Shown: positions 15,709 through 26,355 of the stretch, one piece after another | How the letters are laid out: every line of letters begins with the position of its first letter | How positions within the stretch are numbered: the stretch's first letter is position 1 | Assembly (NCBI GenBank): GCA_016872815.1 | Contig: VGYY01000007.1 | Span: forward strand, 1 to 33,768 | DNA from: Planctomycetota bacterium | GTDB lineage: Bacteria > Planctomycetota > B15-G4 > SIAN01 | DNA length: 33,768 nt | Reading direction: 5' to 3' | Program-made: the position numbers and the translations under genes | The notes under the pieces: generated by a model | What the model saw: only the letters and a program-made list of their open reading frames with translations | Databases searched by the model: none | Told to the model about the DNA's origin: nothing

Positions 15709-17757
15709 TCAGGGCGCCGCGAGCATCCGTGCCGACCAGGCGGCGAGCGTCGCCCGCCCGCCATCGCGCGCCGCCGCGGCCAGCTGCGGGCGCCGCTCGG
15801 GGCCGACCCGATCGCGAGCGAGCGCCAGCAACTGCAGCGCGGCGCCGTCATCCAGCTCGGGCAGCAGCTCGCGAACGCGCGCCAGCGCCGCATCTCCGCC
15901 GGCGTCGCCGAGGAGGTGCTCGGCGGTGGCGCGGGGGCTTCTCCAGCGGTCGTCGCCGTCGCGATCGAGCCAGACCGGGTTGGTCACGCCGAGCGCCCGC
16001 GGCAGCTGCATGCTCCAGAACGGCGCCTTCAACGGCGGCGCGCTGGCGATCGCCACCAACCACGCGTCGTGGCCGGGCAGCGGGACCGTCACGCGCCGCA
16101 CCCGTTCGGTCGGTGCGTCGCCCGGCTGCGGCGGATCGAGCAGTACGGTCGCCGCCACCACGCCATTGACGACCAGTTCGAGGTTCTGCGGCGCCAGCCA
16201 TGAGGGGTGGCGGACGCGCACGGTCGCCACCACCGTCTCGTCATCGACCCGCACCAGGTCGCCCATGCCGCGGCCGCGCACGTCGATGGTCGCGAACAGG
16301 CCGTAACTGGCGCTCACCCGCCCTTCCCGGAAGGCGCGACAGGCGGCTGCCACGTCGATGCGCGCCGGATCGTCGGTGGCGCTCGGCACGTACGTGCGCC
16401 CCTGGCCGACGATCACGCCGACGTGGTGCGAGTCGGAGGAACCGATCGCGGTGAAGCGTTCGCCGCGATTCAGCAGCCCGTACCACCCGGGGAGCACCAT
16501 CTCCGGCGGCGCGGTGGGTCCATCCGAGTTGATCAGTTCGATGCAGTCGAAGGTGAAGCGCTGCAGCTCGCGTCGCTCGCCGGTGGCGTCGTCGAGACCG
16601 AAGCGCGTCCACGGATCCTTGCCGTTCTCGGGCCAGCGCGGGTGGTTGAGGATGACCACCTGCGCGCCCTTGGCGCGAATGCCGGCGACCAGCTTCTCCC
16701 AGTCGGCTTCCTTCCACGGCGGCAGGTCGGCGCCGGGCGGCAGCGGGAAGGCGTTCATATGGCCGTTGTCGGTGGTCACCTCGTTGCCGGTCACCGGCGT
16801 GAACCACTCGCTGACGCGCATCGCCTCCTGCGTCGGGCGATAGTCGATCTGGCGGTTGTGGTCGGTGGCGATCGGCAGCTCGATCCCCTCGCCGGCGATG
16901 GTGACCATCCGCTCTTCCATCGAGGCGTCGCCGTGGCCGCTGTGGGTCAGCGTGTGGATGTGGGTGTCGCAGGCGATGAAGCCGGTGGTGTCGACCTCGC
17001 GGGTCAGCGCGAACTCGGCGCGCGCGGTGGCGCCGACGACGACGTCGAGCTCGGCGGTCGCGACGCTCCACTCCATGCCGCGACCGGCCCAGACGGTGAC
17101 GCGGCCCGGGCGCAGTTCGACGACGGCGCGGCCGTTCGTGGTGTAGGCGATGCCGGGCCGCACGGCGGTGGAGCGTTCGTCGGCGTACCAGAGTTCGGCC
17201 GCGGTGTTGTCGGCGCGCGCGAAGGTGAGCCGTGCCGGCAGCGGCGAGCCGTCGGCGGCGTCGGCCACGGTGAGCTCGACGCGGCCGAGCCCCAGCACGT
17301 CGCGCAGCGACTTCTCGACCAGGCGGAAGCGGCCGACGGCGAGGTCGTCGGCCGGATCGGCGGGGGCGACGCGCAGCTCGTTCGCGCCGGTGGCGATGGC
17401 TCCGGCGGGGACGATGACGCGCTGCTCCGCCAGCCCTTTCTGGCGGGCAAGGCGCACGAGGCGCTCGCCGTTCAGCTCGAGCCAGCACTCGTGGTCGACA
17501 TCACGACAGAAGTAGAAGAGCAGCCAGTCGACCGGGTTGGCGGATGCGTCGAAGCGCACCCGCAGCGGGGACGGCTCGGGATCAGCGCTGGTCTCGGTCC
17601 ACTCCGGCTCCCGATTGTCGCCGAGGTGGTGAAGGGTGGCGTCGAGCCACCGGCCTTCGGTCGCCTCCTGCGCGCGCGGCCGGCTGGCGAGCAGCGCCGC
17701 CGCCGTCGTCAGCGCGGCGAGCAGGGCGAGGCGCGACCAGCTCGGGAAGGTTCGCAT
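15709..17757 (-). CDS. CehA/McbA-like PHP-domain metallohydrolase, secreted
   Basis: This 682-residue protein starts at ATG 17757 with a GGAGG site 6-10 bases upstream and a signal peptide (LALLAALTTAAALLASRPRAQ). Residues ~40-250 look like beta-sandwich regions that may bind a substrate. The PHP-type metal site follows: DTHIHTLTHSGHGD near 265, ATDHN, NHPRW near 355 and GSSDSHH near 440, matching the CehA_McbA group (named after carbaryl and carbofuran hydrolases). A C-terminal beta domain and a helical tail follow. It likely hydrolyses phosphoester or ester bonds in the periplasm; the real substrate is unknown. It diverges from the selenoprotein gene across about 120 bp and precedes the pseudopilin. 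Confidence 0.85.
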   Translation of the reverse strand: MRTFPSWSRLALLAALTTAAALLASRPRAQEATEGRWLDATLHHLGDNREPEWTETSADPEPSPLRVRFDASANPVDWLLFYFCRDVDHECWLELNGERLVRLARQKGLAEQRVIVPAGAIATGANELRVAPADPADDLAVGRFRLVEKSLRDVLGLGRVELTVADAADGSPLPARLTFARADNTAAELWYADERSTAVRPGIAYTTNGRAVVELRPGRVTVWAGRGMEWSVATAELDVVVGATARAEFALTREVDTTGFIACDTHIHTLTHSGHGDASMEERMVTIAGEGIELPIATDHNRQIDYRPTQEAMRVSEWFTPVTGNEVTTDNGHMNAFPLPPGADLPPWKEADWEKLVAGIRAKGAQVVILNHPRWPENGKDPWTRFGLDDATGERRELQRFTFDCIELINSDGPTAPPEMVLPGWYGLLNRGERFTAIGSSDSHHVGVIVGQGRTYVPSATDDPARIDVAAACRAFREGRVSASYGLFATIDVRGRGMGDLVRVDDETVVATVRVRHPSWLAPQNLELVVNGVVAATVLLDPPQPGDAPTERVRRVTVPLPGHDAWLVAIASAPPLKAPFWSMQLPRALGVTNPVWLDRDGDDRWRSPRATAEHLLGDAGGDAALARVRELLPELDDGAALQLLALARDRVGPERRPQLAAAARDGGRATLAAWSARMLAAP

Positions 17758-17877: not shown

Positions 17878-19134
17878 ATGGGCACGATCATGCGGACGTT
17901 GGCGCTGGTGGCAGTGCTGGTCGGTGGCGCCGAGTCGGCGCGCGCCGGCGAGATCGCGTGGCTGCGTGATGTTGCGGCGGGGGAGGCGCTGGCGCAGTCG
18001 GCGGGCAAGCCGCTGCTGCTGGTGCTGCGCTGCGAGCGCTGACCGGATTGCAGCCGGTTCGACGGCCAGTTGGCCGTCGCCACGCCCGAGATCGAGGCGC
18101 TCGCCAGCCGCTTCGCCTGCGTGCGCGTGACCAATCTGCGCGGTTTCGACCTCGCCCGCTATCCGCTCGACTTCGACCTCACGTTCCTCGCCGTCACGGC
18201 GACGGCGGACGGCCGCATCCTCCACCGCTACGGCGGGCGGAACGGGCGTGATCCGGAGGCGTTCCTGTCGCTCGACTCGTTCGCGTCCTTCCTCGAAGCT
18301 TCGCTCGCGACCTACCGGTCGCTGCCGCCGGCGTCATCGGCCGCGAAGGCGCCCGACCCGCGGACGATCGAGGCGTCGCCGAGCTTCCGCCGCAAGGACG
18401 CCGAGAAGCGGGTCGACTGCGTCCATTGCCACATGATCGGCGACTTCCGCCACCGCGACGACGTCGCGGCCGGCAAGTTCCGGCCGGAACAGCGCTTCCG
18501 ATTCCCCGACCTCGCGCGCGTCGGGTTCGAGGTCGAGCGGGATCGCCAGTCCACGGTGGCCGCGGTCGCCGCGGACGGACCGGCGGCTCGGGCCGGGCTG
18601 CGCGTCGGCGACGTGATCGCCACGGCGGGCGGAGCGCGGATCGCGACTCGCGCCGACCTGCAGTGGCAGCTCGACCGCGCACCGGCGACGGCGACGCGGC
18701 TCGAGCTCGAGGTGATGCGTGACGGCCAGCCGGCGACGCTGGCGCTGGCGCTCGGCGAGCGCTGGAAGGAGTGCGATGCGCGCGAGTACGCGTGGCGGCC
18801 GTACAAGTGGAATCTCGAGCCGGCACCCGGATTCGGCGGGAAGAGCCTCGATTCGGCCGAGAAACGCGAGCTCGGGCTGCCCGAGGACGCATGGGCGATG
18901 CGGGTGGGCTACCTCGTGACGTGGGGCGAACGGGCGGTCACCGGGCAGGCGGCGCAGGCGGCCGGGCTCCGGAAGAACGACATCGTGCTGTCGGTGGCCG
19001 GCGAGTCGCGGTTCGACGGCGAGGACCACTTCCAGGCGTGGTTCCGCTTCACCCAGCGGGTGGGGACGAAGATCGAGCTGGTCGTGCTCCGCGACGGCCG
19101 GCGGCGCACGCTGAAGATGGAAGTCGTCGGATAG
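17878..19134 (+). CDS. Trx/heme/PDZ candidate selenoprotein (UGA at codon 55)
   Basis: ATG 17878 has a GGGAG site and opens a signal peptide (MRTLALVAVLVGGAESARA). The frame then reads GKPLLLVLRCER, TGA (18040-18042), PDCSRFDGQL and continues without a frame change to the TAG at 19132. With TGA as selenocysteine the protein has 418 residues and the site C52-x-x-U55-x-x-C58 in a thioredoxin-like domain. Next come a linker, one c-type heme motif (CVHCH, residues 181-185), a first PDZ domain (about 205-300; GLRVGDVIATAGG) and a second PDZ-like domain (about 330-415; GLRKNDIVLSVAG). It matches what I know as the 'Trx7/PDZ domain-containing (seleno)protein' family of Planctomycetota. Location is periplasmic. 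Function is unknown; a redox or chaperone role is an inference. Automatic callers will probably report a start after the TGA and lose the redox site. It ends 12 bp before sthA, which points towards it. Confidence 0.85.
18061..18078 (+). promoter_or_regulatory. candidate bacterial SECIS element
   Basis: A perfect 7-bp stem (GACGGCC / GGCCGTC) carries a 4-base AGTT loop; the A and last T can also pair. The loop begins 25 bases after the TGA and has G in its second position. This meets the published bacterial SECIS constraints (loop about 16-37 bases after UGA, short stem, G in the first two loop positions). A smaller stem (GACCGG/CCGGTT) lies just before it at 18041-18059. SelB would bind the loop while the UGA enters the ribosome. 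Confidence 0.7.
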
Positions 19135-19146
19135 CCGCGGTGCGGC

Positions 19147-20625
19147 TCAGGCGATCGGGGCGGGAGCCGGTGCTGCTGCGACGCTGTTCGGGAAGAGCTT
19201 CGCGCGCTGCTTCACGATGTCGAGCGCGGCGACGCGGTAGGCCTCGGCCAGCGTCGGGAAGTTGAAGATGTTGTCGACGAAGCCGTCGACGCCGAAGTCG
19301 CAGAGCAGTGCCATCTGGCCGACGTGGATCAGCTCGCAGGCGCCCTCGCCGACGATCTGGAGGCCGAGCACGTGCTTGCCGCCCGGATCGGCGACCAGCT
19401 TGAGCAATCCGTCCTGGATCGCGCTGATCTGGCCGCGCGCCAGCTCCGCGAACTTCGCGCGGCCGACCAGGCAGCCACCGTACTTGCGCGTCGCCTCGGC
19501 CTCGGTGAGGCCGACCTGCGACATTTCGGGGATGGTGTAGATGCCGGCCGGGATCGTCTCCGAGCCGTGGCCGAGCGTCAGGTTGAAGGCGTGGCAGACG
19601 GCGCGGCGGCCCTGCTCCATCGACGAGGAGGCGAGGGAGGGCGGGCCGATGACGTCACCGACGGCGTAGATGTGCGGGACCGCCGTGCGGCAGTGCTCGT
19701 CCACCGGGATGACGCCGCGATCGCTGACCGCGAGCCCGGCGGCGGCGAGGTCGAGCCCGTCGACGTTGGCGACGCGGCCGAGGCAGCAGAGCAGCCGTTC
19801 CGAGCGGATCTCGCTGCCGTCGTCGAGGGTCGTGACCACGTGCTCGACGCCGTCCCACTCGACCTTGACGTGCTTGCGGCCGCCGACGTAGCGGCCGCCG
19901 GCGCGCGCGAACGCGGCGACGAACTGGTCGACGATCTCGCCATCGAGGAAGCCGAGCGGGCGTGCGCCCTTGTCGATCATCGTCACCTTGGTGCCGAGCG
20001 CGGCGAAGATCGTCGCGTACTCGCTGGCAATGACGCCCGCTCCCAGCACCGTGAGCGACTTCGGCCGCCAGGTCAGCGACAGGAGCGAGTCGCTGTCGAG
20101 GATCTTGTCGTGGTCGACCGGGACGTCGGGCGGCGTGCGCGGGCGCGAGCCGGTGGCGATGACGATGACGTCGGCGGTGAGGCGCCGGCGACCGCCGCCG
20201 ACGGTCTCGACCTCGACGGTCCGCGCGTCGGCGAAGCGAGCGCGGCCGTGGAGCTTCAGCGCCCCATTGCGGCGGAGCTGCTCGCTCATGAAGCGCTGGT
20301 GCGCCCGGATGACGTCCTCCATCCGGTTCATCAGGCTCGCGACCTCGAGGTCCTCGCTCATCGTCACCGGGAAGACGCCGCCGGTCTTGACCCGGAACTC
20401 GGTGAAGGCCAGCGCCGTCTCGCGCAGGGTCTTGCTCGGAATGGTGCCGCGGTGGACGCAGGCGCCGCCGACGTCGATCTCGCGCTCCACCAGAACGACC
20501 TTCTTGCCGGCCTTGGCCGCCTGGATGGTCGCCTTGTGGCCGGCGGGGCCGCTGCCGATCACGACCACGTCGAATCGATCGATGGCGGCAGCGGAGCCTG
20601 CGGACGGACGCGGGGTCTCGCTCAC
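19147..20625 (-). CDS. sthA: soluble pyridine nucleotide transhydrogenase
   Basis: This flavoprotein (492 residues) starts at GTG 20625, overlapping the HDOD stop as GTGA with a GGAG site 8 bases upstream. It shows the FAD motif VVIGSGPAGHKA, the active-site segment GGACVHRGTIPSKTLRE, the NAD(P) motif VLGAGVIASEYA and the second FAD motif IYAVGDVIGPP. The redox segment has only one cysteine and the GTIPSKTL form seen in SthA rather than the CxxxxC of lipoamide dehydrogenase or glutathione reductase. The C-terminal dimer domain contains NIFNFPTLAEAYRVAALD, also typical. SthA transfers hydride between NADPH and NAD+, balancing the two pools in the cytoplasm. The long plus-strand frame over this gene is a shadow. 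Confidence 0.9.
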   Translation of the reverse strand: MSETPRPSAGSAAAIDRFDVVVIGSGPAGHKATIQAAKAGKKVVLVEREIDVGGACVHRGTIPSKTLRETALAFTEFRVKTGGVFPVTMSEDLEVASLMNRMEDVIRAHQRFMSEQLRRNGALKLHGRARFADARTVEVETVGGGRRRLTADVIVIATGSRPRTPPDVPVDHDKILDSDSLLSLTWRPKSLTVLGAGVIASEYATIFAALGTKVTMIDKGARPLGFLDGEIVDQFVAAFARAGGRYVGGRKHVKVEWDGVEHVVTTLDDGSEIRSERLLCCLGRVANVDGLDLAAAGLAVSDRGVIPVDEHCRTAVPHIYAVGDVIGPPSLASSSMEQGRRAVCHAFNLTLGHGSETIPAGIYTIPEMSQVGLTEAEATRKYGGCLVGRAKFAELARGQISAIQDGLLKLVADPGGKHVLGLQIVGEGACELIHVGQMALLCDFGVDGFVDNIFNFPTLAEAYRVAALDIVKQRAKLFPNSVAAAPAPAPIA

Positions 20626-21506
20626 AGCAGCGTCTCCGCCATGGTCTTCACCGCCTCCTTGCACTTCAGCAGCGTCTCGAGTTCGTCGCGGTAGACGTTG
20701 AGCGGCTCCAGCATCGGGTGAGCGCGGAGCGCCTCCTCGGTCACCTCGCGCGGGCCGACCGCGAAGTGGGCGAGGTCGTCGGCGAGCGCAAGCACCATCG
20801 CGGCCTGCGTGGCGGACGGCGCCTCACGCGGCCGATGGTGGTGCGCGATGGTCTCGGCCAGGCGCTCGGGGAGCTTCCAGCTCTCGACCAGTTGCGATGC
20901 GACGCCGGCGTGCATCTGCTCGACGATGTCCTCGACGAGGCCGGCCTCGACGCCGATCCCCTGCTCCTTCTGCACGTCGACCAGCAACTGCCAGAGCACC
21001 GGCTTGCCGGCGTCGTGCAGCAGGCCGGCGAGGAAGGCGTCCTCGACGTTCCAGCGCCGCAGACGCGCGACCTCCTGGCCGTAGGCCGCCGTCGCCAGCG
21101 AGTGGCGGAACGTCGCGCGCACCTGCGTGTCGCAGCCAGCGACGCGGAAGGCCTTGGTCTGCGTCGCGATCAGCAGCGCGATCTCGCGGATCTTCTTCAT
21201 CCCGAGCCGCGACACCGCCTGCTGCAGTGAGACGATCGGCGTGGTCGGGGCATAGAGGGCCGAATTGGCCATGCGCAGCACGTGGCCGGCCATCGCAGCG
21301 TCGCGGCGGATCAGCTCGCCGAGCTGGCGGGCATCGCATTTTTCGTCCGCGGTCGCCTGAATGACGCGTTGCGCCGCCTCGGGAAGCAGCGGCAGTTCGA
21401 ACTTCGCGGAACGGATGCGCTCGAGGAACGCCGTGCGGAAGCGTGCGACCTTCTCGGTCACGCTGCCGATGCCCGGTCCGCTCGTGGTCCTGACGCTCTC
21501 GCTCAT
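20622..21506 (-). CDS. HDOD-domain signalling protein
   Basis: This protein of about 294 residues is dominated by an HDOD domain (about 30-230): LPLLPEAAQRVIQ, IRRDAAMAGHVLRMANSALY, ISLQQAV-type VSLQQAVSRLGMKKIREIAL and AFLAGLLHDAGKPVL, then IAHHHRP. HDOD domains are catalytically inactive relatives of HD phosphohydrolases and act in signalling or post-transcriptional control. No output domain is attached. The start is uncertain: ATG 21506 (GGGAG upstream) is preferred, ATG 21533 is possible. It overlaps sthA by 4 bases, so the two are translated together although their functions are not obviously linked. Confidence 0.85.
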   Translation of the reverse strand: MSESVRTTSGPGIGSVTEKVARFRTAFLERIRSAKFELPLLPEAAQRVIQATADEKCDARQLGELIRRDAAMAGHVLRMANSALYAPTTPIVSLQQAVSRLGMKKIREIALLIATQTKAFRVAGCDTQVRATFRHSLATAAYGQEVARLRRWNVEDAFLAGLLHDAGKPVLWQLLVDVQKEQGIGVEAGLVEDIVEQMHAGVASQLVESWKLPERLAETIAHHHRPREAPSATQAAMVLALADDLAHFAVGPREVTEEALRAHPMLEPLNVYRDELETLLKCKEAVKTMAETLL

Positions 21507-21570
21507 CCGGGGTCCGCTCCCGGGGACCCTCATCGGCTGGCGAGGTCGGGCGACTTGCGCGCCGGGAGCG

Positions 21571-23379
21571 TCAGCCCCCCCGGCCCTCGATCACGACGTG
21601 CTCGCGGTCGACGGCGAGGTCGGGGTAGGTCTCGGTCTTGCCGGAGGCCCAGCGGACGGTGACGGCGACCTTGGTGTCGCTGATGGCGCCGAGGCCGAAG
21701 GTGGGGGCGATCTGGCACTGGCTCAGGTAGGACGACCCGGTCCGCACCTCGCGGCGCAGCGTCCGGCCGCCGGCCGTCAGCGTTACGACGGCGCCGAGGC
21801 CGTCCGTGTTCTTGCCGGCGCCCTGCGGCCGGATCCGGATCCAGCGGTGGCCCAGCGCCTGGTCGTTGCGCACGACGATCGGCTTGCGGCCGTTCTGCGT
21901 CATCACCCAGTCGATGTCGCCATCGTTGTCGAGGTCGCCGGCCGCCGCTCCGCGCGCGACGACCGGTCGCTTCAGCGCGTCGCCCGACTTCGCGCTGACA
22001 TCGGCGAAGGTGCCGTCGCCGCGGTTCCAGAACAGCTGGGTCGGCTGCTCGTAGGTGACATCCTTGGCGACGAGGCCGATCTCCGACTCGATGTGGCCGT
22101 TGCAGACGAGCATGTCCTGACAGCCGTCGAGGTCGTAGTCGCAGAAGACCACGGCGAAGGTCAGCGACAGGTTGGTCGGCGCGGCCACGCGCGCGGCGCC
22201 GGCGCGGTCGACGAAGAACATCTGGTCGCCGGTCTGCGTGAACATCGAGACCGGCTCCTTCGAGAAGTTGCCGATCGAGATCACCAGCTTGCCGTCGTTG
22301 CAGAGGTCGGCGGCGTCGATGCCCATCCCGGCGCGCGCGCGGCCGACCTCGTCGTAGGCGATGCCGGCGTCGGTCGCGACCTCGGTGAAGGTGCCGTCCG
22401 GCTGGCTCAGGAACAGGTAGTTCGGCTGCGTGTCGTTGCTGACCGCGAGGTCGGGGCGGCCGTCGCGGTTCACGTCGGCGATGGCGACGCCCAGCGCCTT
22501 GCTGTCGGCGCGCTCGATCCCCGCCTTCTTCGTCACGTCCTCGAAGGTGCCGTCGCCTCGCCCGCGCCAGAGCCGGCAGCTGTCGGCGTCGTACTTGGTC
22601 GGGATCGTGTAGGCCTTGGTCGAGCCGGTCAGCGTCTCGAACACGTCGTTCTCGATCGACCAGTGCACGTAGCCGCAAAGGAACAGGTCGACCACGCCGT
22701 CGCAGTCGTAGTCGAGCCAGGCCGCGCTGGTGGCCCAGGTGGAGTGCTGGCGACCCTGCTTGTCGGTCCAGTTCGGCGTGGTGAACCCGGCGGCATCGGT
22801 CACGTCGGTGAACTTGCCGCCGTCGTTGCGCAGCAGCCGGTTCGGACCGAGCGCCGTCACGACCAGGTCGGCGTCGCCATCGCCGTCGTAGTCGGCCGCC
22901 GCGGCACCCATGCCGATGAGCGACAGGCCGGCGCCGGTCGCCGCGGTCACGTCCTCGAACTTCATCCCGCCCCGGTTGCGATAGAGGCGGCAGGTCGACG
23001 CCGGCGTGGTGGCATGGTCGGGCCACTCGGCGCCCTGGACCAGAAACACGTCCTGCAGCCCGTCGCCGTCGTAGTCGAGCAGCGCGACGCCGGCACCCAT
23101 GGTCTCCGGCAGGTACTTCTTGCCGCGCGCGCCGCTGACGTGGGTGAAGTCGATGCCCGACTCGGCGGTCACGTCGGTGAAGGTCACGCTCGGCGCGACC
23201 TTCGCGGTCGGGTCGACCGGATTGAACGGCTTGGCGTACTTCTCCGGCTCGGCCGGCTTGATCGCCTCGGGCGCCTTCTCCTCGCTGCACGCCGGAAACA
23301 GCAGCGCGGCGATCGCGAAGGGGGCCGTTCTGCGGGCGGCGACGGCGAGGCAACGGGGACGCGGGCTCTGGCGGCGCAT
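21571..23379 (-). CDS. CRTAC1-type FG-GAP/ASPIC-UnbV secreted protein
   Basis: This 602-residue protein has an N-terminal export signal (PFAIAALLFPACSEEK) with a Cys that may be lipidated, although the box FPAC is imperfect. It carries a row of FG-GAP/VCBS blades with calcium-type motifs (DYDGDGLQDVFLV, DYDGDGDADLVV, DVNRDGRPDLAV, DLDNDGDIDWVM), predicting a beta-propeller at about residues 65-510. It ends with an ASPIC/UnbV domain (about 525-590; TLTAGGRTLRREV, SSYLSQ, VTVRWASGKTE). It follows the multiheme cytochrome/TPR gene by 81 bp on the same strand, a pairing often seen in Planctomycetota and Acidobacteria. It is probably a surface or periplasmic calcium-stabilised binding protein; function unknown. 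It resembles the FG-GAP part of the gene at 4886-7768 but is a separate paralogue without thioredoxin. Confidence 0.85.
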   Translation of the reverse strand: MRRQSPRPRCLAVAARRTAPFAIAALLFPACSEEKAPEAIKPAEPEKYAKPFNPVDPTAKVAPSVTFTDVTAESGIDFTHVSGARGKKYLPETMGAGVALLDYDGDGLQDVFLVQGAEWPDHATTPASTCRLYRNRGGMKFEDVTAATGAGLSLIGMGAAAADYDGDGDADLVVTALGPNRLLRNDGGKFTDVTDAAGFTTPNWTDKQGRQHSTWATSAAWLDYDCDGVVDLFLCGYVHWSIENDVFETLTGSTKAYTIPTKYDADSCRLWRGRGDGTFEDVTKKAGIERADSKALGVAIADVNRDGRPDLAVSNDTQPNYLFLSQPDGTFTEVATDAGIAYDEVGRARAGMGIDAADLCNDGKLVISIGNFSKEPVSMFTQTGDQMFFVDRAGAARVAAPTNLSLTFAVVFCDYDLDGCQDMLVCNGHIESEIGLVAKDVTYEQPTQLFWNRGDGTFADVSAKSGDALKRPVVARGAAAGDLDNDGDIDWVMTQNGRKPIVVRNDQALGHRWIRIRPQGAGKNTDGLGAVVTLTAGGRTLRREVRTGSSYLSQCQIAPTFGLGAISDTKVAVTVRWASGKTETYPDLAVDREHVVIEGRGG

Positions 23380-23460
23380 TTCGGTTTCCGGAGGGGGCGG
23401 CCGCGACGAGCCGCGGCCAGGTCAGGCGGATCAGCGATCAGGAGCGGCCGTGCGACCCGC

Positions 23461-26355
23461 TCAGTGGTCCTCGCCGTGGTGTTCGTGCTCCATCGCGGTG
23501 GCGGCGCCACCGTGCAATGGGGCGAGTTCATGGGCGTGGATCGGATTGGTCTCGAGATTGGCGTGCGGGTCCTTGTGGCGGAAGTCATTGGTCAGCGCCT
23601 GGGCCGACTCGTCGATCTGGTACTTGGCGTAGGCCTTCCCCGCTTCCGCCGCCTCGGCGGACTTGCCGAGCGCCTGGTAGTTCAGCATCCGGTGGTAGTG
23701 CGCCTCGCGGTCCTCGGGGTCGATCGCCAGCACCATCCCGTACGCCTCGAGCGAGGCCGCGAACTGCTGATCGAGATAGAGCGTGCGGCCAAGGCGGCGC
23801 CACGTGTCGCGATCCTCGGGGAACTCGTCGAGCACCGTCTTGTACGCCTCGATCGCCTGGCCGTAGCGGCCGTCGTCCTGCAGCGCGTTGCCCCACACCC
23901 ATGCGGTCTGGCGGTCGCCGGGCGCGATCTCCTCGCACTTCTGCAGCAGTTCGAGCGCTCTCGCGACGTTGCCGTCGGTCAGCGCGTTGCGCGCCAGGTT
24001 GCGCCAGCCGTCGACCTTCGCCGGCGCGACGCGCTGCACTTCCGCGAAACCGATCGCGGCGAGCCGGGTGTCGCCCTTCAGCATCATCGCGATGCCGTAG
24101 TCGTTCGGCCGGATCCACTGGTCGGGCGAGGCATAGACCGGCGGCGGCGTCGGCCCGACCGCCTCGCCCTTCTTCGCCACCTTCAGCGTCACCTTGGCCG
24201 ACTCGATCGTCGTGATCGGCAGGTCGATCTTCTTCGCCGTCGTCTTGGCGAAGACGAAGTCGGTGTAGTGCTGCTTGAACTTGCGCCACTTGAGGTGCGC
24301 GACGAGGTCGATGGTGCCGCCGGCCGCGCTCTCCGGCACGACGAACTGGTAGCGCACCACGTCCGACGTCGACGGGCCGATGACGTTGGCGTACAGCATC
24401 GCGTGGAAGTCCTGCGGGTTGCGCAGCTTCGCCTCGGTGCCGTCATGGGCGACGACGACCGCACCGTAGCGGTGCGCCGCCGGATCGAGGTGCTGGTCAG
24501 GGCCGATCCAGCCGCTGTGGAACAGCTTGCCGGCCCCCTCCCGCTCGCCGTCTTGTTCGACGATGAACTCGACGAAGCCCTCGTTGCTGTCGTTGGTGCC
24601 GCCGGGGAAGGTGTGGCCGACGCCCTTGTTGCGGACGACGACGTGGACCTCGACCCGCTCGCCCGGCACCAGCATCGGCTGCGTGCGGTCGAGCGCGGTG
24701 ATGATCTCCTTCTCGGTGTCCTCGGCGCCCAGGCGGCGCAGCGCGAAGACGTCGATCCGCATCTTCTCGTCCTGCAGGAACTCCTCGATCCGGCGGATCG
24801 TGTCGGTGTCGCCGCGCAGCGCCGGCAGCGCCGTGTTCACCGCGAGGAAGCGGTGCGACTTCACCTTGCCGCCCTTGGCCGAGACGTCGCCGAGCGGCGC
24901 CTCCTCGAGCGGCATGTGGCAGTCCTGGCAGTTCTTCTTCACCGGCGCGCCGGTGATCGGATCACGCGGCCGGTAGAAGGTGCGTGCCGCGTTCTGCGCC
25001 ACGCCGCTGTCGTGCCAGTTGTCGTATTCGTTCTGACCGCGGAACCAGCGGTACTTGTTCACCGGCACGTCGAGCCCGACCTTGTGGCACGTCGCGCAGT
25101 ACTCGCTGGTCCGGAAGAACGGTTTCAGCAACCGCTCCTTGTGCACGTTCGGCTTGGCCTTGATGACGATGTCGCCGATCTCGCGCAGAACGCCGCTGCT
25201 GGTGTGGTCGAAGAGGTAGGGCGAATCGCGGTCGTCCGGGATGTTGTAGGCGCCGTTGCCGGTCCGGTTGTGCAGCGAGTCCATCGCGTGGCACGACAAG
25301 CAGGTGAGCCCGGCCTGCGCATTCGGCCCGTCGGGGTCGAAGTCCTTGCCGATCTCGCCGGCCAGCATCAGCGCCGGCTCGTGGCAGCCGGAGCACCACT
25401 GCGACGGCTGCTTGCCGACGCCCGGCTGCTCGCGCATCGCCAGGAATGCCGCCCGGTAGAACGGATTGTTCATCGAACTGAAGCGGTGGGCCGACTTGCT
25501 CCACTGCTCGACGATGTCCTGGTGGCAGCGGTTGCAGGTCATCGCGCCGATCTGGATGTTCTGGACGAAGCCGTACTTCGCCACCTCGTCCTTGAGTTGT
25601 TGCGGATCGGGCAGTTCGCCGCGGGTGACGACGGCCGACGCCATCCACTCGCCGGTGGCGGTGGTGGCGGGCGACGGGAAGAAGCGGCTCTCCGGCGAGA
25701 CGTCGGTGAACGACGCGAACGGCAGGAACGGGTCGCGACTCTTGTCCTTGAGCAGCGCGTCGTTCGGGATGGTGGCCATCACCGTGCCGTGGTCGATCGC
25801 GATGCCGCGGTCGGAACGCGATGGCAGCGTGATCACGTGGATGCCGAGGCAGAGGATGGCGACGGCGGTCGCGCCGGAGAGCGCCCGGCCGATCGACGCC
25901 CAGGTCGGCTTCACCACTGACGTGACGCGGTGGATGATGTAGACGGCCGGCAGCCCGACGCCGAGCCCGATGTGCGTCCAGTATTGCGGGCGGTTGTCGC
26001 GGCTGTTGGCCGCGCTCATGATGAAGAAGCCGGTGATCATCAGGCCGAGCATCGCGAGGATGAGTCCCGCGCCGGTGCCGACCGCGACGCCGTGGCGGCG
26101 CGTCCACGCGCGGCCGAGGTGCCACATCGCGAAGCCGAGCGCGCACGGCGTCAGTGCCGTCCCGAGCAGCGTGTGGCCCAGCACCATCCACTGGTAGAAG
26201 GCGGGCAGCGTGTCGGGCGGCAGCCTGAATTGCTCGGTTGCTTCGGTGACCCGGAACAGCAGCAGGAAGATCGCGTTGGCGAGCATCGCAAGCCCGCCCC
26301 AGACAACGACCTGGAGCAACCGGCGCTGCCCGGGGGAGAGAATGCTCTGGCTCAT
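23461..26355 (-). CDS. membrane-anchored multiheme c-type cytochrome with TPR domain
   Basis: This 964-residue protein opens with four or five membrane helices (about 12-190; LAMLANAIFLLLF, LILAMLGLMITGFFIMSA, AVAILCLGIHVITL). Five c-type heme motifs follow: CNRCH (~271), CSGCH (~320), CLSCH (~350), CATCH (~418) and CQDCH (~475), with many extra His for axial ligation, as in cytochrome c-554-like proteins. A beta-rich section (about 540-740; GVGHTFPGGTND) precedes TPR repeats (about 760-930; AWVWGNALQDDGRYGQAIEAYKTV, EFPEDRDTWRRLGRTLY). It ends with a His/Glu-rich tail (MEHEHHGEDH) that may bind metal. It likely passes electrons between the quinone pool and periplasmic partners, with TPRs holding a partner; the substrate is unknown. 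First gene of the run with CRTAC1, HDOD and sthA. Confidence 0.85.
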   Translation of the reverse strand: MSQSILSPGQRRLLQVVVWGGLAMLANAIFLLLFRVTEATEQFRLPPDTLPAFYQWMVLGHTLLGTALTPCALGFAMWHLGRAWTRRHGVAVGTGAGLILAMLGLMITGFFIMSAANSRDNRPQYWTHIGLGVGLPAVYIIHRVTSVVKPTWASIGRALSGATAVAILCLGIHVITLPSRSDRGIAIDHGTVMATIPNDALLKDKSRDPFLPFASFTDVSPESRFFPSPATTATGEWMASAVVTRGELPDPQQLKDEVAKYGFVQNIQIGAMTCNRCHQDIVEQWSKSAHRFSSMNNPFYRAAFLAMREQPGVGKQPSQWCSGCHEPALMLAGEIGKDFDPDGPNAQAGLTCLSCHAMDSLHNRTGNGAYNIPDDRDSPYLFDHTSSGVLREIGDIVIKAKPNVHKERLLKPFFRTSEYCATCHKVGLDVPVNKYRWFRGQNEYDNWHDSGVAQNAARTFYRPRDPITGAPVKKNCQDCHMPLEEAPLGDVSAKGGKVKSHRFLAVNTALPALRGDTDTIRRIEEFLQDEKMRIDVFALRRLGAEDTEKEIITALDRTQPMLVPGERVEVHVVVRNKGVGHTFPGGTNDSNEGFVEFIVEQDGEREGAGKLFHSGWIGPDQHLDPAAHRYGAVVVAHDGTEAKLRNPQDFHAMLYANVIGPSTSDVVRYQFVVPESAAGGTIDLVAHLKWRKFKQHYTDFVFAKTTAKKIDLPITTIESAKVTLKVAKKGEAVGPTPPPVYASPDQWIRPNDYGIAMMLKGDTRLAAIGFAEVQRVAPAKVDGWRNLARNALTDGNVARALELLQKCEEIAPGDRQTAWVWGNALQDDGRYGQAIEAYKTVLDEFPEDRDTWRRLGRTLYLDQQFAASLEAYGMVLAIDPEDREAHYHRMLNYQALGKSAEAAEAGKAYAKYQIDESAQALTNDFRHKDPHANLETNPIHAHELAPLHGGAATAMEHEHHGEDH

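Follow-up and report, generated by a model that had tools for sequence, protein, structure and literature searches.

We have identified the gene at 17878-19134 on the forward strand of a planctomycete DNA stretch (33,768 nucleotides, hereafter the window) as almost certainly coding for a selenoprotein of family NF041199, whose UGA codon 55 would be decoded as selenocysteine (Sec) by means of a bSECIS hairpin. The product is predicted to be an exported oxidoreductase with a UxxC redox site, probable haem and two PDZ domains. The first-pass annotation had proposed that the in-frame TGA is a probable selenocysteine; the Sec machinery of the source genome, the Sec/Cys column of the homologs, the bSECIS hairpin and the match to NF041199 all favour this reading, which is very probably correct. 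Accordingly, the gene is an additional member of an already catalogued selenoprotein family.

Reading frame across the internal TGA

The frame comprises 419 codons and contains two stop triplets only, the TGA of codon 55 and the terminal TAG, in agreement with its earlier description as intact but for the TGA at 18040-18042. The interval 18031-18051 encodes the C52-U55-C58 motif, and re-reading it returned the reported site, CERUPDC. The gene and its redox site are as follows.

17878-19134 (+): coding sequence of the Trx7/PDZ selenoprotein, 418 residues, Sec at position 55, stop TAG, a sole internal stop, NF041199 match of 357 bits
18031-18033 (+): Cys52, an extra redox position, Sec in 19 covering homologs
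18040-18042 (+): TGA, very probably read as Sec55, at the first position of the canonical CxxC according to the frame, the homolog column, the AlphaFold2 model and the profile alignment
18049-18051 (+): Cys58, the predicted resolving Cys of UxxC, from the homolog columns and the profile alignment

The continuation of the thioredoxin fold that had been described 3' of the TGA (LAVATPEIEALASRFACVRV) is present, and both the Thioredoxin_7 match and the structural model agree with it. Since GC3 is alike on the two sides of the TGA (0.91 on the 5' side and 0.92 on the 3' side), both halves look coding. Two homologs from the same genus, with 61-62% protein identity, carry TGA at the same codon, and dN/dS downstream of it is about 0.5, indicating purifying selection. 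Therefore, the TGA is neither a chance stop nor a sequencing error, and a pseudogene or an assembly error was rejected on these grounds. The concern that a sense codon such as TGC had been misread is likewise answered by the conservation of the TGA in independent genomes.

If the TGA were a true stop, the locus would be a pseudogene, a sequencing error, or a separate downstream gene starting from the TTG at 18070. An open reading frame of 354 amino acids with this TTG start does exist, and assemblies can contain errors. However, both congeners and most of the family share the TGA at this codon, the codon bias and the purifying selection persist beyond it, the hairpin described below is conserved, and a start at 18070 would lose the active site and the signal peptide. 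We consider a true stop here to be extremely improbable. With TGA treated as a stop, gene callers would truncate the protein at residue 54 or place its start at 18070.

TGA terminates all 10 of the other likely genes checked in the window, so it is generally a stop and the standard code applies; local recoding, as first suggested, fits this result. It could be argued that an in-frame TGA by itself names no residue, and that the codon specifies an ordinary amino acid such as Trp by a reassigned code or general read-through. Besides the 10 genes ending in TGA, the homologs speak against this, as the residue found in place of TGA is always Cys and never Trp or Arg, and so do the full Sec machinery and the bSECIS hairpin. 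The probability of an ordinary residue at this codon is accordingly negligible.

Family, domains and genomic context

For profile searches, the TGA of the conceptual protein was taken as U and entered as C. The protein matched the 'Trx7/PDZ domain-containing (seleno)protein' model NF041199 with 357.1 bits (cut-off 300) over model positions 2-389 of 390, and Pfam placed Thioredoxin_7 and two PDZ stretches on it. All 44 aligned members matched the NF041199 model and contained Thioredoxin_7 followed by PDZ domains, as does the window protein. The domains and the N-terminal region are listed below.

17878-17946 (+): probable signal peptide, residues 1-23 (MGTIMRTLALVAVLVGGAESARA), recognised by eye from its charged start, hydrophobic core and ARA end
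17890 (+): alternative ATG start, within the probable signal peptide
17956-18132 (+): thioredoxin-fold domain (Thioredoxin_7, residues 27-85), present in 44 of 44 members; the fold extends further downstream
18523-18750 (+): first PDZ domain (residues 216-291), from Pfam and the members
18940-19128 (+): second PDZ domain (about residues 355-417), from Pfam, second stretches in NCBIfam and AlphaFold2

Judged by its N-terminus, the protein looks exported. Nothing separates it from NF041199, whose model it matches in full length above the curated cut-off and whose Sec site and domain order it shares; it has one Sec (CxxUxxC), and about half of the Sec members have two. NF041199 appears in a 2026 review among the predicted selenoprotein families, with the motif CxxU, a single Sec and a reference to the 2008 Global Ocean Sampling study (PMC13188914). 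That study described a CxxU selenoprotein family as 'putative secreted serine protease MucD' (PMC2398784), which is presumably the same family, as it combines a CxxU motif with a secreted PDZ-type protein. In contrast to that name, the protease domain is absent here: Pfam and structure searches found no trypsin-like domain of the HtrA/MucD kind, and DegP/MucD matched the PDZ stretches only. The name would thus stem from the PDZ domains alone. The type 2 VPGUxxT family thioredoxin-like (seleno)protein (NF041383) gave a weak match to the thioredoxin part, at 22 bits far under its cut-off of 275; it differs in its motif and lacks PDZ domains.

The family was present in 123 of the 392 genomes of the phylum that were searched, and a search of plasmids returned no match. 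Several copies per genome were observed in G044, G115, G279 and G288, some of them adjacent on one contig and at times of differing Sec types.

The gene is flanked by a divergent CehA/McbA family metallohydrolase (15709-17757, minus strand; NF038032, 155 bits) and a convergent Si-specific NAD(P)(+) transhydrogenase (19147-20664, minus strand; NF003585, 544 bits). Across 20 sampled loci there was no conserved neighbour, synteny being found in congeners only, and the context therefore gives no function. Elsewhere in the window, an open frame of 1519 codons at 21361-25920 (+) has no Pfam or NCBIfam match and may or may not be a gene, as a frame of 964 codons at 23461-26355 overlaps it on the other strand.

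Sec/Cys exchange and the Sec machinery

Every covering homolog has U or C in column 55, and about two thirds have U (38 U and 17 C when the window, its duplicate locus and one fragment are counted in); furthermore, the in-frame UGA aligns with the Cys of homologs. The check for Cys or Sec at the same column thus turned up no unrelated residue, and the expectation of a family with Sec and Cys forms was borne out. Column 52 is also always C or U, Cys in the window protein and Sec in 19 covering homologs, and column 58 is Cys save in three members.

In these 19 homologs, roughly half of those with Sec, the codons at columns 52 and 55 are both TGA, giving a UxxUxxC motif (L024, L027, L030, L053, L054 and others), whereas the review table lists a single Sec for the family (PMC13188914). 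The two TGA codons lie 9 nt apart, and one hairpin could serve both. On the tree, well-supported branches forced at least seven changes each for the CxxU and UxxU labels and three for CxxC; therefore, exchange between Sec and Cys is frequent.

The source genome assembly (470 contigs, 94% complete) was searched for the genes that Sec insertion calls for, and selA, selB, selC (tRNA-Sec) and selD were all found. The tRNA-Sec scored 76.9 bits and has the anticodon UCA; selB scored 336 bits, selD 339 bits and selA 429 bits, the selA match covering only positions 1-366 of the 455-position model. The selD gene (L018, contig C311, 2980-3903) has its own in-frame TGA at the usual Sec site, CAGUAAK, which provides a further and independent indication that this genome decodes UGA as Sec. 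Among 80 genomes, selA was found in 34 of 35 with a TGA member versus 16 of 44 with Cys members only (Fisher p 5e-9, uncorrected for kinship). The one Sec-bearing genome with no selA match, G082, is an incomplete assembly.

A bSECIS hairpin downstream of the UGA

The published criteria for a bSECIS are a loop of 3-9 nt, an upper stem of 4-16 bp, a G in the first two loop positions, a spacing of 16-37 nt and a minimum free energy of -7.5 kcal/mol or lower (PMC13188914). The following hairpin lies within these limits.

18060-18079 (+): bSECIS hairpin, 8-bp stem, AGUU loop at 18068-18071 with a spacing of 25 nt from the UGA; the hairpin lies within the coding sequence at 18-37 nt past the UGA

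A stretch of 41-46 nt that includes a second hairpin has a fold energy of -23.6 kcal/mol, and 2 of 200 shuffles were as good. The bSECIS model was matched by 18 of 19 CxxU, 17 of 19 UxxU and 9 of 17 Cys rows, compared with about 7.5, 10.4 and 9.2 rows, respectively, expected from synonymous recoding alone. In the Sec members, the loop is nearly always at 25-26 nt and mostly reads AGUU, AGGU or GGU; the Cys members showed no such focus of loop position or sequence. In most members, the folding energy did not differ significantly from that of synonymous recodings (mean z of about -0.7 in CxxU and -0.1 in UxxU). Support for the bSECIS therefore comes from the loop position, the covariation and the block left unchanged in the congeners rather than from energy.

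With regard to covariation, the stem occurs in two registers, with a 4-nt or a 5-nt loop. Counting pairs in one fixed register showed no signal (53% paired), as more than half of the members have the 5-nt loop and their stem is displaced by one position. When both registers were allowed, 5.97 of 7 positions were paired in the Sec members and 3.81 in the Cys members; swapping the 3' arms reached the observed pairing in 0 of 2000 trials for the Sec members (maximum 5.61) versus 93 of 2000 for the Cys members.

The longest identical run of the gene in three congeners, 26 nt from 18058, falls exactly over the hairpin, and all 7 third positions within it are unchanged against a background of 0.46. 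The hairpin is thus conserved across Sec but not Cys members and is unchanged in two congeners. It covers the conserved codons DGQLA, and part of the conservation could reflect protein constraint on these codons, although the Cys members mostly lack the Gln. An Rfam search of the window gave no match, as expected considering that bSECIS elements are diverse.

Thioredoxin fold and redox pair

The AlphaFold2 model, built on a 44-member alignment, showed a pLDDT of 93.8 and a pTM of 0.90. Sec55 (residue 32 of the mature protein) lies between the strand 23-27 and the helix 33-44, at the N-terminus of the helix, in the place occupied by the first Cys of the thioredoxin CxxC. Foldseek matches of the full model were mostly PDZ domains of DegP/DegQ, and the N-terminal half was therefore modelled separately; of the solved folds, it most resembled thioredoxin-like isomerases, AGR2/ERp18 and DsbD-gamma. 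These and other thioredoxin-like disulfide oxidoreductases share the fold and have CxxC in the same place, but they use Cys rather than Sec and lack the CXXCH segment and the PDZ domains.

In a profile alignment to solved thioredoxin-fold proteins, U55 and C58 fall on the CTDC of the disulfide isomerase 3fk8. The alignment and the model both put the U55-C58 pair on the canonical CxxC, and the TGA is therefore located where the first-pass annotation expected a redox Cys or Sec in a UxxC site. Because this pair aligns with CxxC, Cys52 is an additional thiol, located three residues N-terminal to it. On the other hand, the review table writes the motif as CxxU (PMC13188914), and only Cys or Sec occurs in column 52, whereas three members deviate in column 58, so that Cys52-Sec55 might be the working redox motif, with Cys58 as an accessory. 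Considering the alignment with 3fk8 and the position of U55 at the helix start, as for the first Cys of CxxC, we regard this as unlikely and prefer the U55-C58 pair.

The CXXCH segment

A further motif lies in a helical segment between the thioredoxin and PDZ domains.

18418-18432 (+): CVHCH (residues 181-185), a motif of the CXXCH type for c-type haem, conserved without exception in the members compared; haem binding is predicted

The residues C181, H183, C184 and H185 are invariant in all members compared, including the middle His. In the source genome, CcsA-type and ResB cytochrome c assembly proteins are encoded close together on contig C220. The motif is of the CXXCH type, the protein looks exported and the genome has these assembly proteins, which makes covalent binding of a c-type haem likely. 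The family name of NF041199 makes no mention of haem.

Even with Sec inserted, the segment might instead coordinate zinc, copper or another metal, or provide a further thiol pair. Four potential ligands within five residues, with the middle His invariant as well, would suit such a role, and the N-terminal half gave no cytochrome c fold above a marginal E of 0.09. Against this, CXXCH is the standard attachment motif of haem c, and both the exported look of the protein and the CcsA-type/ResB proteins on contig C220 point to haem. A non-haem role is therefore a real but less favoured possibility, and we retain the haem c assignment as the likely one.

On balance, we lean towards the view that the family is an exported hybrid of selenothioredoxin, haem c and PDZ domains, in which a Sec centre, with one or two Sec and one hairpin, adjoins a covalent haem and couples thiol/selenol chemistry to one-electron transfer. 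Within the literature searched, we found no paper joining selenoprotein, PDZ and CXXCH.

Proposed function

The frame, the family, the Sec/Cys column, the Sec machinery, the hairpin and the fold were established computationally; Sec insertion in the cell, export, haem, the direction of the reaction and the clients are inferred. tRNA-Sec and SelB would decode the UGA of codon 55 as Sec, directed by the bSECIS within the coding sequence, and the signal peptide would export the product to act in the cell envelope as a thiol-disulfide oxidoreductase. During catalysis, Sec55 may be the attacking selenolate, Cys58 the resolving thiol and Cys52 an extra partner thiol, and disulfides of envelope proteins may be reduced or rearranged. 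The two PDZ domains may hold the tails of client or partner proteins, and any haem present would donate or accept electrons.

In summary, the double-Sec copies and the family-wide haem-binding motif look less well described than the family itself. The repeated switching among CxxC, CxxU and UxxU makes this family a good natural series for studies of Sec/Cys exchange. If the CXXCH segment bears haem, the selenium redox chemistry of these proteins would be linked to electron transfer within the cell envelope.
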